A DNA stretch of 64,000 nucleotides from Nakamurella aerolata (GTDB lineage Bacteria; Actinomycetota; Actinomycetes; Mycobacteriales; Nakamurellaceae): contig NZ_JABEND010000003.1 in assembly GCF_013002705.1 (NCBI RefSeq), positions 496,001 to 560,000 on the forward strand, read 5' to 3'. The translations under genes and the position numbers were made by a program. Below the pieces are notes generated by a model. That model was not told where the DNA came from, did no database searches, and worked only from the letters and a program-made list of their open reading frames with translations. The first letter of the stretch is position 1. The number at the start of each line of letters is the position of its first letter. Shown here one piece after another: positions 7,653 to 46,771 of this stretch.

Positions 7653-8084
7653 CGGGCCAGGGTAGAGGGACGGCCGCCGTGCGCTCCGCGCGGATCACGG
7701 CGGGCGGATCACGGCGGGTTGGCCCTGGCTGACGACACCCGGGCTGGCGACACCCGGGCTCAAGACATGGAATGACCCCGGATCGCTACCAGGTCGGGGT
7801 CCGGCAGCGGTCCGGGGTCATTGGGTATGTCGCTATAGGGGGCCGATTCGTTACAGGAATCGTGAAGATTCATGGAATTTCTCTGGCCCGATTCGCCGGT
7901 AAGGCTCTGACCTGCACCGATGGGAGTGCTGGTGCCAGAAACTGGCGGAGACTACCGGCAGCGACCGAAGGATCCGGTGGATCCGAGATGGAGTTTGTTG
8001 GCCCGGGGCGCAGGCCGCCGGGCTGCATCCGGCGCCGGGACGCGGTGGGCGTCAGCGGCGGCCGAATGCCGGCGATCCAGCGAT
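7653..8084. other. Spacer without a convincing gene
   Basis: About 430 bp upstream of the GroES-like gene. It contains a duplicated GGCGACACCCGGGCT unit near 7735-7765, a GATTC/GAATC dyad at 7846-7862 and a locally A/T-richer patch at 7820-7895 that could hold a promoter. Plus-strand frames crossing it have no recognisable protein features. No CIRCE or HAIR heat-shock operator is visible. Confidence 0.5.
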
Positions 8085-10319: not shown

Positions 10320-10529
10320 CGGCTGGAGGATCGCGGACTGCTGCGTCGCTACCTGTGCCCGGACGACCGCAGGGGCATCTACACCGAGGTCACCCCGGCC
10401 GGCTGCGAGCTACTCGCCAAGGCCCGCCCCGATCACGATCGAGTGCTGGCCGACGCGCTGGACGCGGCCGCCGAGGTGCCGGAACTGGCCGATCTGGCCG
10501 GCCGGCTGGACGCTCCCCTCGCCCGCTGA
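10317..10529 (+). pseudogene. C-terminal remnant of a MarR-family regulator
   Basis: About 70 codons beginning ARLEDRGLLRRYLCPDDRRG give the wing of the MarR winged helix (the DDRRG signature) and the C-terminal dimerisation helices down to the stop at 10529. The N-terminal dimerisation and recognition helices are absent, as is any start codon at the right place. MarR regulators are often divergent from the MFS exporter they repress. Here both genes have lost their 5' halves and are fused back to back near 10317-10322. Confidence 0.8.
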
Positions 10530-10602
10530 GCATCCCTGGGCAGCAGCTCGGTCGGCGCAAACCCGTTGCGCGGGCTTGGGTGTGCGCTCTACGGTGAGGC
10601 CC

Positions 10603-10653
10603 ATGAGATCACGGTCCATCACCACGACGACGCCCGATCCGGGCGCCGTCTGA
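10603..10653 (+). CDS. Threonine-rich leader peptide
   Basis: A 16-codon frame, MRSRSITTTTPDPGAV, starts with ATG 10603 after GTGAGG and ends at TGA 10651. Four consecutive Thr codons (ACC ACG ACG ACG, 10621-10632) precede the threonyl-tRNA synthetase-like gene by about 115 bp. A run of codons for the amino acid of the downstream synthetase is the hallmark of ribosome-mediated attenuation. The peptide itself probably has no function beyond sensing charged tRNA-Thr. Confidence 0.85.
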   Translation: MRSRSITTTTPDPGAV

Positions 10654-10705
10654 CCTGCCACCTTCTCTCCCCCCCGACGGCTCCGGGAACACCGGATGTC
10701 CGTCG
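10626..10705 (+). promoter_or_regulatory. Predicted threonine transcription attenuator
   Basis: Three competing helices can be drawn. Segment 1 (10626-10636, containing two of the Thr codons) pairs with segment 2 (10640-10650): ten pairs with one mismatch and a 3-nt loop. Segment 2 (GCCGTC, 10645-10650) can instead pair with segment 3 (GACGGC, 10676-10681). Segment 3 can also pair with segment 4 (CGACGG 10675-10680 with CCGTCG 10700-10705), with an inner helix TCCGG/CCGGA around GAACA. A ribosome stalled on Thr codons would mask segment 1 and favour 2:3, preventing hairpin 3:4. There is no U-run after 3:4, which is common in actinobacteria, so termination itself is inferred. Confidence 0.7.
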
Positions 10706-10768
10706 GCGCTCTCGCTCCGGCTCGGCGGCCGGCCGTTCCCCCGCCGTCCCGACCGGAACGGAAGCACC

Positions 10769-12379
10769 ATGAAACCCTGTTCACCGCAATCCCCGGCATC
10801 GAGCGCTCCCGCGCCGAACTCTGCTGCGCCGAACTCTTCTGCGCCGGACTCTTCTGCAGAGAGCTTGCCCGCGCCGGACTCAGCTGGCCCGGTCTCACCA
10901 GGGCCGGACGCACTTGGGCCGGACGCACTTGGGCCGGACGCATCTCGGCCTAGATCGGTTGCGCCGCAACCCGTTTCGGCACATGAGCTGGGGCGGTCCC
11001 TCGACCTGTTCGACACCGACGCCAGGGTGGGCCCCGGCCTTCCGCTGTGGCTGCCGGACGGCGCCATCGTCAGGGGCGAGCTGCAGCGGCTGGCCGACGA
11101 GGAAGCCGCCGCCAGCGGCGCGCAACAGGTGTACACCCCCGCACTGGCCAAGGCCGAACTGTTCGAGACCTCAGGGCATCTGGCCAAGTTCGGGCCAGAG
11201 ATGTACCCGCCGATGCAGGTCGGCGGCGAGCGATACCTGTTGCGCCCGGCCAATTGTCCGCACCATGCCATGGTGTTCGCGGCGCGTCCGCACAGCTATC
11301 GCGAGCTGCCGATCCGCTACCACGAGGTGGGCGCGATGTTCCGCAACGAACTGTCCGGAGTACTCGCCGGCCTCACCAGGGTCCGGCAGATCAACCTGGA
11401 CGACACCCACGTCTTCGCCCGGTTGGACCAGCTGGAGGACGAGGTGGTTGCCGGGCTGCAATCGGTCCGGCGGGTGCACGCGGCGTTGGGTTTCGACAAG
11501 TGCGAGTACCGATTGTCACTGCCCGCCAACGACTCTGAGATACTCGGCGAGCCGCAGCAGTGGCGTCGAGCCGGTGCGGCGCTGGCCACCGCGCTGGACC
11601 GGATCGGGGTGCCCTACCACCGGGCGGAGGGCGAGGCTGCCTTCTACGGCCCGAAGATCGACGTCCAGCTGATCCTCGATTCCGGGCCAGGGTCCAGCTC
11701 CGGTGCCGGAGCCGGTGCTGGCGCTGGTGCTGGTGCTGGTGCTGGCGCCGGAGCTTGTGTTGGTGTTGGTGGTGATGCTGATGCGGATGCGGATGCGGAT
11801 GCAGGCGCGGACACTGACATGGACGTCGACGACCGCGCATCCGACCCTGCCGAACGGCAGGCCAGGGTCACCGAGACCGTCGCCACCGTTCAGGTGGATT
11901 TTGTTCAACCGCAACGGTTTCGGCTCGGCTACGTGGGGCCGGACGGCACCGAACACCGGCCGGTGATGGTGCACCGCGGCGTGGTCGGCTCGATGGAGCG
12001 GGTGCTCGCGCTGCTGCTGCAGGTGCACTCCGGACGGCTCCCGTTCTGGCTGAACCCGCACCAGCTGGTGGTGCTGCCGGTCGCCGGGAGCGGCGCTTCC
12101 GGCGACGAAGCGGGGCGCGCCGCGGCCCAGCTGGCCGATCGATGCGCGCCGGCGCGAGCGGACGTCGTCATCGACGGCTCGCTCGGGCACCGGATCCGCG
12201 CGGCCCGGGAGCGACGTGCCGGGCTGATCGCCGTCATCGGCCCGCGCGAAGCGGCCGACGGCACCGTCGACGTGCTCGACCCGAGCGACGGGCAGCGCCG
12301 GACCGTCGCGGCGGCGGCGCTGGCCGCGGTACTACGCCGCGCCATCGCCGAGCGGCGGCCACCGCGGTGGGAACAGTGA
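10769..12379 (+). CDS. Threonyl-tRNA synthetase-like protein lacking TGS and editing domains
   Basis: A 536-residue class II synthetase of the ThrRS type. Present are the catalytic core (LFDTDARVGPGLPLWLPDGA onward, from about residue 75) and the anticodon-binding domain (PHQLVVLPV onward, from about 430). All three zinc ligands of ThrRS have counterparts: Cys in RPANCPHH (about 161), His in DDTHVF (about 214) and His in VMVHRG (about 400). Motif 2 (MFRNELSG) and motif 3 (GSMER) are intact, so it may be active. The usual TGS and editing domains are replaced by about 70 residues of short Pro/Ser/Ala repeats (PDALG units). A Gly/Ala then Asp/Ala insertion of about 45 residues sits between FYGPKID (about 292) and TVQVDF. 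ATG 10769 follows GGAACGGAAG. It is probably a threonine-starvation-induced paralogue. Confidence 0.87.
   Translation: MKPCSPQSPASSAPAPNSAAPNSSAPDSSAESLPAPDSAGPVSPGPDALGPDALGPDASRPRSVAPQPVSAHELGRSLDLFDTDARVGPGLPLWLPDGAIVRGELQRLADEEAAASGAQQVYTPALAKAELFETSGHLAKFGPEMYPPMQVGGERYLLRPANCPHHAMVFAARPHSYRELPIRYHEVGAMFRNELSGVLAGLTRVRQINLDDTHVFARLDQLEDEVVAGLQSVRRVHAALGFDKCEYRLSLPANDSEILGEPQQWRRAGAALATALDRIGVPYHRAEGEAAFYGPKIDVQLILDSGPGSSSGAGAGAGAGAGAGAGAGACVGVGGDADADADADAGADTDMDVDDRASDPAERQARVTETVATVQVDFVQPQRFRLGYVGPDGTEHRPVMVHRGVVGSMERVLALLLQVHSGRLPFWLNPHQLVVLPVAGSGASGDEAGRAAAQLADRCAPARADVVIDGSLGHRIRAARERRAGLIAVIGPREAADGTVDVLDPSDGQRRTVAAAALAAVLRRAIAERRPPRWEQ
10901..10945 (+). repeat. 15-bp in-frame minisatellite in the ThrRS-like gene
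   Basis: Three head-to-tail copies of GGGCCGGACGCACTT start at 10901, 10916 and 10931, the last one degenerate. They encode repeated PDALG in the N-terminal extension of the synthetase. Confidence 0.9.
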
Positions 12380-44389: not shown

Positions 44390-46771
44390 TCAGCCGGTGA
44401 CGCCGATCTGCACGTTGTCGTACGAGTGCTCCATGTTTGTGTCGGCCACCTCAAGACCGGTGGTCGGCCGGAAGCCGTTGAACGACACCGCGTTGCCGGA
44501 CTTGATGGTGGTGGTCAGCGTGGTGCCGTGCACGGTGACCGAGGCGCTGTCCGCGCCGATCGTCATCGAGACCGGAATCCACTGGTAGTTCGGGGTGAAG
44601 GTGGGGAAGGTGCCCACCAGCTGCCACCCCGAGCCGTCCCACACCGTCAGGTCGAAACCCTTGCCGCCGGCCGCCGGCCGGAAGTGGAACTTCCAGCCTG
44701 TCACCTGCTTGCCGGCGGCGTCGGTGCCGAGGATCTCCCAGTTGGCGCCGCTGCCGTAGCCCTCACCCGAGTAGCCGAAGTCCAGTTGCAGCTTCTTGCC
44801 GGCCGGGGTGCCGGCGAACGGGAACGTCATGCGCCCCATGGAGTTCGGGTCGGTGTCGACCAGGATCGCGCGCCGCTGCGAGTTCTGCCCCGGCATGATG
44901 GTGTCCGCGGTGAAGGCATGCAGGGTGTCGACGGTGCCGCGCGGCGTGACGTTCACCGCGTCGTTCTCGAACGTCCACAGATCGGAACCGTACAGCTCCA
45001 GCTCGTTCAGCGCGGTGAAGGCGTCCCGGCCGATGCCAGACACCCGGACGTAACGCGCCGCGGTCGGTGTGAAGTCGGTGTACCGCACCGCGCAGTCGAC
45101 GCTGTCCTTCTGCTGCACCACCGGCCGGCCCCAGTTCTTGCCGTCCACCGACAGCTGCACCTGGGCGCTGCCAGCCACCCCGCGGTCGAGCATCAACCCG
45201 ATGCGGTTCAGGGTGTATTGCCGATCCAGTTGCAGGTCAATCACTTTGCGGGCGCCGTCGGCGAACCGGGCGGCAGCCAGGTACTCGTTGCTGCCGTCGA
45301 CGGCACCGGCCAGCCGCTGTTCGGTGTAGCGACTGTCGGCGGCGACCACATCGCCGGTGAGCTTCATGCTGCCGGCCTTGACCCCGCCGGCCAGATCGAG
45401 TTTGCCCTTGCCTGAGGTCACCGCATCGACCCGGCGGGCCCAGTCGCCGTTCTGCTGGCCGTACTCCTGGCACGACCAGATCACCACGCACATGTCGCCG
45501 AACTGCACCGTCGAGTTCGGTTGATCCGGCGTCAGTGAGGTGTTGCCGCTGGATCCCATCCAGCGGCCGAGAAAGCCCTTGCGGATGTAGTTGCTGTAGG
45601 TGAGTTTGCCGGTGTCCCAAGTCTTTCCGGTGCCGTCCCAGTTGACGGCGACGTAATTGTCCGGGCGCCCGTACGAGAGCACCATGGCGCCGTTGGGCTG
45701 CAGCACCAGCTGCGGCTGGATGCCCTCGGCCGGCAGGCCGGGCGGCGGGACGAAGGTGGTGACCGGGGTCCAGGTCTTGCCGTCGTCGTCGGAGTACGAC
45801 TGCCGCATCGGCTTGATGGCGGCGTTGTGCGCCTCGCCGGCCCTGGCGACCATCAGCAGCCGGCCGTCGGTGGTCCGCGACAGGGTGAACTCGGTCAGGT
45901 CGTTGCCGCCGGGGATTTCCGAGCGCTGCGACCAGGTCTTGCCGGCGTCGGTCGACTGCAGAATCAGCGCGTGACAGTCCGGCGGGGTCGAGGTGTTGGG
46001 TGGTGGGCAGCTGCCGGTCTTGGCGCCGTACACCCCGGTGATCAGGGTGCCGTCGTTCAACTCGACGATGTCGCGGCCGTTGAACCGGTAATAGCTGAGC
46101 TTCACCAGGTTTTCCACCAGCGGCGCCGTCCACTTCTGCCAGGTCTTGCCAAGATCGGTGCTGCGCGCCATCGGGATGCCGACCCGGTTGGGGGCGGGTG
46201 CGCCGGTGGGCCGGAACATGGCGGCCAGGACGGAGCCGTCGCGCATCCGGCCCATGCTGCCGTACGCCCAGTCCTTGCCGAGACCGCCGCCCTCGGCGGG
46301 GGCGAACACCTTGTTGTTGTTCTCCGCCACCAGCTGCGTCATGTTCAGCACCGCGGTGGACGAGTCCTCGCGGCCCTGCACGTTGAGCAGGGTCTTTTTC
46401 ACCCGTGACCCTTCCACCAGATGGTCGAAGGAGAACGCCAGCGGGGTGGAGGCCAGCACACCGGGCGCCGGGCTGAACGGGTACCACTGGGCACCGAGCG
46501 ACAACTCGTTGACGCCGGGGTCGGTGCCGTCGCTGACGGTGTTGCCGCCACCGCCGCTTGGCGGTGGCTCGTCCCAACCGGCCGTCACCGCGGCGTACGC
46601 GCCGACGCCGCCGACCAGGGTGGTGACGGCGGCCAGCACCAGCGCCTTGCCGCGCAGCCGGCGCACCGGCCCGCGGCGGTGGTGCCGGTCCGGACGCTGC
46701 GGCGAGAACTGTGGGAACTGCTGGTTGGACTGTTGCTGACTTTCCTGTGGGGTTGCGGTATGTGCTTGCAT
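44390..46771 (-). CDS. Secreted sialidase-like BNR protein with discoidin-type domain
   Basis: 793 residues. A cytoplasmic Gln-rich N-terminus and one hydrophobic helix (ALVLAAVTTLVGGVGAYAAV) form an uncleaved anchor or signal. The catalytic-type beta-propeller carries three Asp boxes (STDLGKTW, STDAGKTW, SDDDGKTW). Then follow an F5/8-type C domain (YTLNRIGLMLDRGV to DAFTALNELELYG, about 495-620) and a final lectin-like jelly roll ending in MEHSYDNVQIGV. It probably hydrolyses or binds sialic-acid-like or other glycans outside the cell. The family Arg triad could not be confirmed by eye. Confidence 0.82.
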   Translation of the reverse strand: MQAHTATPQESQQQSNQQFPQFSPQRPDRHHRRGPVRRLRGKALVLAAVTTLVGGVGAYAAVTAGWDEPPPSGGGGNTVSDGTDPGVNELSLGAQWYPFSPAPGVLASTPLAFSFDHLVEGSRVKKTLLNVQGREDSSTAVLNMTQLVAENNNKVFAPAEGGGLGKDWAYGSMGRMRDGSVLAAMFRPTGAPAPNRVGIPMARSTDLGKTWQKWTAPLVENLVKLSYYRFNGRDIVELNDGTLITGVYGAKTGSCPPPNTSTPPDCHALILQSTDAGKTWSQRSEIPGGNDLTEFTLSRTTDGRLLMVARAGEAHNAAIKPMRQSYSDDDGKTWTPVTTFVPPPGLPAEGIQPQLVLQPNGAMVLSYGRPDNYVAVNWDGTGKTWDTGKLTYSNYIRKGFLGRWMGSSGNTSLTPDQPNSTVQFGDMCVVIWSCQEYGQQNGDWARRVDAVTSGKGKLDLAGGVKAGSMKLTGDVVAADSRYTEQRLAGAVDGSNEYLAAARFADGARKVIDLQLDRQYTLNRIGLMLDRGVAGSAQVQLSVDGKNWGRPVVQQKDSVDCAVRYTDFTPTAARYVRVSGIGRDAFTALNELELYGSDLWTFENDAVNVTPRGTVDTLHAFTADTIMPGQNSQRRAILVDTDPNSMGRMTFPFAGTPAGKKLQLDFGYSGEGYGSGANWEILGTDAAGKQVTGWKFHFRPAAGGKGFDLTVWDGSGWQLVGTFPTFTPNYQWIPVSMTIGADSASVTVHGTTLTTTIKSGNAVSFNGFRPTTGLEVADTNMEHSYDNVQIGVTG

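Follow-up and report, generated by a model that had tools for sequence, protein, structure and literature searches.

The window analysed here, 64,000 nucleotides (nt) of a contig of Nakamurella aerolata (NZ_JABEND010000003.1, positions 496,001 to 560,000), contains a short open reading frame (ORF) with a run of threonine (Thr) codons directly ahead of a gene for a threonyl-tRNA synthetase (ThrRS) without an editing domain, and the two have been read as a threonine attenuator and the gene under its control. The leader ORF (10603..10653; all features of this locus lie on the plus strand) encodes MRSRSITTTTPDPGAV, followed by a stop codon, and was recognised from the sequence, from comparison with relatives and from its spacing to a promoter. 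The ORF of the synthetase (10769..12379, 536 amino acids) starts 115 nt after the stop of the leader. Both elements had been named in a first-pass annotation of this DNA and are confirmed, with the corrections given below; the leader is real, and its presumed regulatory codons ACC ACG ACG ACG stand at 10621..10632. A search of 10500-10900 gave no match to Rfam up to an E-value of 1, and seven related loci gave none at gathering score, so in these regions the element is an RNA without a matching Rfam family. No Rfam T-box model matched in the same searches, which speaks against a T-box riboswitch.

In the window protein (P0001) Pfam recognises only the class II core (PF00587) and the anticodon-binding domain (PF03129), while the genome also encodes a full-length ThrRS that includes the editing domain tRNA_SAD. 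Neither TGS nor tRNA_SAD was found by Pfam in P0001 or in its relative L008, both of which begin at the core in the alignment. As Pfam does not list TGS in the full-length enzyme of the genome either, only the editing domain makes a good contrast, and of the earlier claim that both domains are lacking the part on the editing domain stands. Residues C96, H147 and H275 (L008 numbering), which we take to be the zinc ligands, are invariant across eight aligned short proteins; together with the two Pfam domains named above they mark the product, as far as its sequence goes, as a ThrRS. On the NCBIfam model TIGR00418 the window protein reaches 351 bits in two stretches, below the cut-off of 383.65, and L008 reaches 437.6 bits. 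By profile, 1nyq, threonyl-tRNA synthetase 1, ranks first among the solved relatives with 515 bits, followed by 1evk (373) and 1qf6 (371), presumably from S. aureus in the first case and from E. coli in the other two.

Two features of the protein had gone unmentioned. It has a low-complexity N-terminal extension of about 68 residues with 15-bp tandem repeats (10769..10972), and a Gly/Ala/Asp-rich in-frame insert lies in the catalytic core at approximately residues 307-367 (11687..11869, approximate limits), absent from the seven other aligned proteins. The frame stays open through both. The short ThrRS L239 likewise has an in-frame repeat-rich insert in its core, at another place.

In an unrooted tree the short ThrRS form one group (support 100/99), apart from the actinobacterial full-length and the Firmicute enzymes; four of the 42 rows were dropped for want of a core, L068 is a misread row, and L005 and L009 form long branches. 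That the short form arose by duplication from the full-length gene of actinobacteria, as implied by the earlier word paralogue, is not supported by these three separate groups, and "second ThrRS" is therefore the safer term. The short form is widespread but patchy: at an E-value of 1e-145, a cut-off that missed at least one short form (in genome G144), it is found in 61 of 394 genomes of the class and 41 of 249 of the order. Within the genus, 3 of the 17 genomes carry it.

The threonine leader and its promoter in relatives

Upstream regions were taken from 60 relatives and the own genome, the best 80 named loci of a larger scan, the 17 genomes of the genus, the 394 of the class and the 249 of the order, and further upstream stretches. 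Excluding L074, whose match begins at residue 102, and L078, a Firmicute full-length form, there were 143 pieces upstream of short ThrRS genes (137 distinct), 142 of them evaluable. A Thr leader precedes the gene in 141 of these 142, so that the Thr codons are kept in orthologues, as the first-pass annotation had expected. At least three consecutive Thr residues occur in 139 of the 143 regions; L061 and L224 have two only, L053 lacks a leader ORF and L219 is cut off by a contig end. Under one strict rule 134 of the 142 real regions pass, against 1 of 426 shuffles. Such an ORF is found upstream of 1 in 37 actinobacterial full-length ThrRS genes (four of these loci were entered twice, and one more pair is identical over the compared piece) and of none of 34 Firmicute ones (one locus skipped). 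Streptomycete-type leaders, for example, read MKRAAMTTTPESVPAR, and those of a Micromonospora-like group MRSAVVTTTPGVPGAPH. For the helix and promoter sets L053, L148, L152, L219 and L224 were dropped, leaving 138, although L148, L152 and L224 do carry leaders.

A covariance model of the leader region, whose sole base pairs are those of the hairpin 3:4 described below, was searched in 246 genomes and matched 78 of them at an E-value of 0.001; the weakest matches scored 27 bits. Among the 38 with at least 56 bits, 36 lie directly upstream of short ThrRS genes already listed. The other two, G144 and G288, were inspected together with two weaker ones, G295 and G218: G144 has a short ThrRS that fell below the earlier search cut-off and bears a repeat insert; in G288 a leader is clearly present, at the end of a contig; in G295 a full-length ThrRS is preceded by a Thr leader; and in G218 no Thr leader was found. 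A simple pattern likewise found no Thr leader in L243 and L244. In L240, the locus of G295, the Thr leader MARVFWSTTTPGISRRLSLAR and then a hairpin stand at about 260-460, before a full-length ThrRS with an editing region.

Ahead of the leader of the window lies the -10 element TACGGT (10590..10595), 7 nt before the ATG. A TANNNT box precedes 131 of 132 distinct related leaders, ending 6 nt (in 50) or 7 nt (in 81) ahead of the start codon, the sole exception being L009, from the same genus as the window. At this spacing the transcript should begin at the leader start codon itself, that is, be leaderless, and for the window a start at about 10602-10603 is predicted. A Shine-Dalgarno-like motif precedes only 3 of the 132 distinct leaders; the good ribosome site once ascribed to the leader was therefore wrong, the conserved feature being the -10 box. 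A possible -35 element, TTGCGC (10566..10571), was read from the sequence 18 nt before the -10 element, at positions weakly conserved in relatives.

In addition, related promoters show an A-rich box about 33 nt upstream of the start of the -10 element. The sequence GAAAWY is the WblC motif according to excerpts of PMC7157823. With at most one mismatch it occurs at -34..-31 in 92 of 131 promoters; at a control offset it is found in 1 of them. The window has GCAAAC (10557..10562, one mismatch) at offset -33 from the -10 box, a putative WhiB7/WblC-type site at the conserved place; its relatives L006, L007 and L008 have at least two mismatches there. The genome encodes five WhiB proteins, one of which, L233, ends in an AT-hook-like RGRPRK, which we take to be a trait of WhiB7; NCBIfam assigned no name to L233. 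We also assume that thrS2 of S. coelicolor is SCO3778. The excerpts of two papers call SCO3778 a threonyl tRNA synthetase (PMC10771440) and list thrS2 among the WblC-activated genes of S. coelicolor (PMC7157823).

These observations could be taken to mean that the element senses general translation stress such as that caused by antibiotics, chiefly through WhiB7, the Thr codons being incidental. The frequency of the box and the listing of thrS2 (PMC7157823, in part) agree with this, but we hold it to be improbable, as it leaves unexplained the near-universal Thr run (141 of 142 regions), its position next to a hairpin (116 of 119 leaders) and the avoidance of ACG specific to Thr, the last two treated below.

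As a separate observation, leader peptides are given for alaS and trpS of S. lividans (Table 4 of PMC8079986), and S. coelicolor alaS2 and trpS are WblC-activated (PMC7157823), both according to excerpts. Several second synthetases may thus be under the same double control, if the alaS and trpS genes correspond between the two species.

Helices between the leader and the gene

Folding of the window indicates a chain of segments that can pair in alternative ways. Hairpin 1:2 (10629..10650) covers the last Thr codons and the 3' half of the leader, where GCCCG (10632-10636) can pair with CGGGC (10640-10644), and its register is kept in relatives. Segment 2, GCCGTC (10645..10650), is the partner of GACGGC (10676-10681) in an alternative state, a complementarity that is nearly invariant in relatives. 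Hairpin 3:4 (10674..10706) is terminator-like but without a U-tract, and a hairpin stands at the corresponding place in relatives. Its loop strand GGGAAC (10685..10690) can pair with GTTCCC (10735-10740), and the corresponding helix, loop:5, covaries in relatives. Segment 5 (10733..10740) could pair either with this loop strand or with the ribosome-site region, since CCGTTCC (10733-10739) is complementary to GGAACGG (10755-10761) in helix 5:6; the latter belongs to the presumed Shine-Dalgarno region of the synthetase, GGAACGGAAG (10755..10764), so assigned from its position before the ATG at 10769. In the minimum-energy fold of the whole leader region of the window the ribosome-site region is paired with bases other than segment 5.

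The Thr run has a constant position relative to the first helix. CCGG, the first hairpin arm, follows immediately 3' of it in 116 of 119 distinct leaders, and the number of codons ahead of the run ranges from 5 to 15; the window has CCCG in this place, the start of its own hairpin arm. As judged from these sequences the Thr codons stand in fixed register with the first helix, which is expected if a stalled ribosome must open the hairpin.

For covariation, 89 sequences of the PAR type were reduced to 48 by removing 21 with a long or weak hairpin and then near-copies; the 33 of these leaders with a gene were used for a tree-based count. Among the 48, paired cells amount to 98% in the outer and 100% in the inner part of 1:2, 93% in 3:4, 96% in 2:3 (GUCCCGG with CCGGGGC) and 93% in loop:5, the pairing of the hairpin loop strand GGGCGAGUG with the downstream strand CACUCGCCC. 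The inner part of 1:2 does not vary at all. Double-change cells number 22 in loop:5 and 15 in 3:4, with shuffle means of 7.5 and 4.4 and none of 500 shuffles as high, and slid versions of loop:5 reach at most 59% paired cells. On the tree, compensatory double changes occurred on 9 branches for loop:5 against 0-1 in six slid versions, on 1 against 0 for the outer part of 1:2 and on none against up to 2 for 3:4. The first-pass annotation had proposed covarying helices in orthologues as a check; the one helix that covaries clearly, loop:5, is one that it did not name. In L009, of the genus of the window, a CTCCGG/CCGGAG version of 2:3 can be seen by eye.

Threonine codons and threonine content

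The leader and the gene behind it differ in their Thr codons. Across relatives the leaders use ACG 335 times and ACC 25 times (335/360 ACG). Among the 750 ACC and ACG codons of 95 distinct short ThrRS genes 3 are ACG, and 92 of the genes have none (3/753 and 93 of 96 with one duplicate included). The corresponding counts are 1129 of 3278, with a single ACG-free gene, in 145 neighbouring genes called by a rough rule on third-position GC content (GC3), and 95 of 674, with 8 ACG-free cores, in 36 housekeeping ThrRS cores. Thr itself accounts for 2.0% of the residues of the short ThrRS, 4.7% of the housekeeping core and 7.0% of the neighbours. The window gene has no ACG among 13 Thr codons and the full-length ThrRS gene of the same genome 2 among 32; the full-length gene behind the Thr leader in L240 has none among 24. 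Threonine tRNAs with the anticodons CGU, GGU and UGU were found in the genome (30 of 45 tRNA loci scanned).

Ordinary codon bias of a highly expressed gene, together with constraints of RNA folding on the leader, might produce an ACG-rich leader and an ACG-poor gene without any sensing of starvation. Housekeeping ThrRS are indeed also rather poor in ACG (8 of 36 cores free of it, and 2 of 32 codons in the own genome), and the last G of the Thr run belongs to the hairpin arm. Other G-ending codons, however, are near normal in the same genes (short ThrRS against neighbours: Ala 0.40 and 0.44, Pro 0.68 and 0.61, Ser 0.40 and 0.48), and the content of Thr is lowered too, which makes this explanation an unlikely one. 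According to excerpts of PMC1183508, in which a selective-charging rule is discussed, ACC is the Thr codon in the thr leader of E. coli; the ACG bias of the leaders and the near-absence of ACG from the gene fit this rule.

At the level of sequence, comparison thus establishes the leader, its register with the hairpin, the promoter spacing, the codon avoidance and the covariation of loop:5. The early reading of a Thr-codon leader before an editing-less ThrRS gains its backing from the relatives, including the register and the avoidance of ACG by the gene.

Proposed switch and related systems

We consider it likely that a ribosome-mediated attenuator responding to charged Thr-tRNA, especially to the tRNA or tRNAs reading ACG, controls an emergency ThrRS, acting on termination, on ribosome access or on both. 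The second ThrRS would probably be switched on when charged threonyl-tRNA is low. Transcription would start at the leader ATG, probably aided by WhiB7. With ample Thr-tRNA the leader would be translated to its end, hairpin 3:4 would form and transcription would stop; where transcription continued, segment 5 would cover the Shine-Dalgarno site. With scarce Thr-tRNA the ribosome would stall at the Thr codons and open 1:2, so that segment 2 could pair with segment 3. Pairing of 2:3 would block 3:4, and the freed loop strand could capture segment 5, exposing the ribosome site; loop:5 would thus link hairpin 3:4 with the ribosome site. As Thr is scarce in the synthetase and its gene is nearly free of ACG, it could be produced while ACG codons stall. 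In this scheme the stall, the direction of the switch, the action of WhiB7 and the share of termination and of translation in the output are what we infer.

Several results weigh against this scheme. In the window, 266 of 1000 shuffled post-leader regions pass criteria modelled on its helices (111 of 1000 when the shuffling includes the leader); the window helices alone were therefore rejected as proof of an attenuator, and the significance of the leader rests on the relatives. Helix 2:3 is obtained when folding begins at 10637, corresponding to a ribosome stalled at the first Thr codon, but a beginning at 10646, corresponding to a stall at the fourth, yields hairpin 3:4, as does one at 10667. 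Helices 1:2, 2:3 and 3:4 can form in the window as first proposed; 2:3, however, shows no double change in the 48 leaders, although nearly all can form it. Helix 5:6 has 2 compensatory branches against up to 4 in slid controls. Swaps between loci had a mixed outcome: the mean energies were -20.0 kcal/mol with the own, -18.1 with swapped and -14.9 with shuffled partners, and variant loops pair over 7.81 bp with their own strand against 6.77, but variant downstream strands pair over 7.94 bp with the common loop against 7.81 with their own. Taken locus by locus, only 43 of 110 loop helices exceed 95% of their own shuffles. The covariance model left the genome of the window itself unmatched at an E-value of 0.001, and L053, from Streptomyces sp. 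ms191, has a short ThrRS with a terminator-like hairpin and a ribosome site but no leader ORF. Finally, an intrinsic terminator with a U-tract is not the rule here: only 17 of 138 hairpins show 6 T or more within the 12 nt across their end, and the window lacks such a tract.

The last point bears on a special case of the proposed attenuator, in which control would be purely translational: on a stall 1:2, 3:4 and 5:6 would rearrange to 2:3 and loop:5 and expose the ribosome site, without any termination. The lack of a U-tract in the window and in most relatives is in line with it, as is the covarying loop:5, which would release segment 5 from the ribosome site. Masking of the Shine-Dalgarno site is mild, with a mean unpaired probability of 0.28 against 0.35 with shuffled strands (lower in 74 of 110 loci), and with segment 5 held in the loop helix the mean becomes 0.45, the gain exceeding 0.05 in 70 of 110. 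On the other hand, U-tracts do follow the hairpin in some relatives, such as L008 and L055, and the covariation of 5:6 is not above its controls. We therefore regard this variant as possible but rather doubtful, an estimate that overlaps with that for the general scheme, in which it is included.

Leader-peptide attenuation of aminoacyl-tRNA synthetase genes is known in kind, and one leader of the present type has already been annotated, thrL of S. lividans. In Bacillota, thrS and thrZ are under T-box control, by which ThrRS is raised when tRNA-Thr is uncharged; T-boxes bind the tRNA directly, unlike the ribosome-mediated element proposed here, and the common aim would be more ThrRS when tRNA-Thr is uncharged. 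Mycobacterial cysteine leader ORFs are leaderless. They resemble the present one, by description rather than by RNA sequence, as actinobacterial, amino-acid-specific leader ORFs acting on translation, and differ in amino acid and gene; translation attenuation is mentioned for Cys genes of M. smegmatis in excerpts of PMC13236596. Excerpts of PMC1262725 report candidate trpS and leuS leaders of Streptomyces and, from a 2005 survey, no conserved RNA structures upstream of actinobacterial threonine operons. With these candidates and the classical trp, his and thr attenuators of enterics the present element shares a leader ORF of cognate codons followed by putatively competing helices. It differs from them in its leaderless start, in a terminator-like hairpin mostly without a U-tract and in a loop strand that can pair with a strand able to mask the ribosome site, and from the E. 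coli thr leader in using ACG instead of ACC (PMC1183508, in part).

In S. lividans TK24 (thrL/thrS, SLIV_19412/SLIV_19410) the leader MKRVRPFLETTPGFVPAR is annotated upstream of a ThrRS, with leaderless transcription by RNA-seq and one hairpin without a U-rich stretch, as given in excerpts of PMC8079986. It shares with our leaders the TTP...PAR pattern, the leaderless start and the ThrRS downstream, and its leader suggests that SLIV_19410 is the short form. In contrast to the present comparison it is an annotation in a single species, and the excerpted text is silent on conservation, on an enzyme lacking editing, on alternative helices, on a WhiB7 box and on the ACG bias. With the WblC/WhiB7 regulon (thrS2, alaS2, trpS) the locus has in common the same box sequence at the corresponding promoter position and a second ThrRS; a Thr leader on thrS2 is not mentioned in the excerpts of PMC7157823, and dependence on WhiB7 in the genome of the window is putative. 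The literature searched, which left subscription papers mostly outside, yielded only PMC8079986 as a paper reporting such a leader, and no description of the breadth of the leader, the rule of a leaderless start on a WhiB7-type promoter, the avoidance of ACG or the covariation of the loop helix.

More tentatively, with slightly less than even confidence, we suggest a phylum-wide family of RNA switches on WhiB7-type promoters, in which a leaderless ACG leader would sense the charging of one group of Thr-tRNA isoacceptors and a terminator loop mimicking the ribosome site would couple termination to translation start. The gene, cleared of the sensor codon and poor in codons for Thr, would encode an emergency synthetase that trades editing for restored charging under translation stress. 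This leads to the testable idea that starvation discriminates between synonymous codons, one of which is reserved for sensing and excluded from the rescue gene. It would also mean that, in streptomycetes and relatives, WhiB7-type stress control is joined to a control of a second synthetase that is specific for one amino acid, and suggests a possible role for the widespread editing-less ThrRS.

Elsewhere in the window, Rfam matched the F6 TB sRNA at 7769-7824 on the minus strand with 49.8 bits (gathering score 46), and a tRNA-Lys gene with the anticodon CTT lies at 45989-46078.

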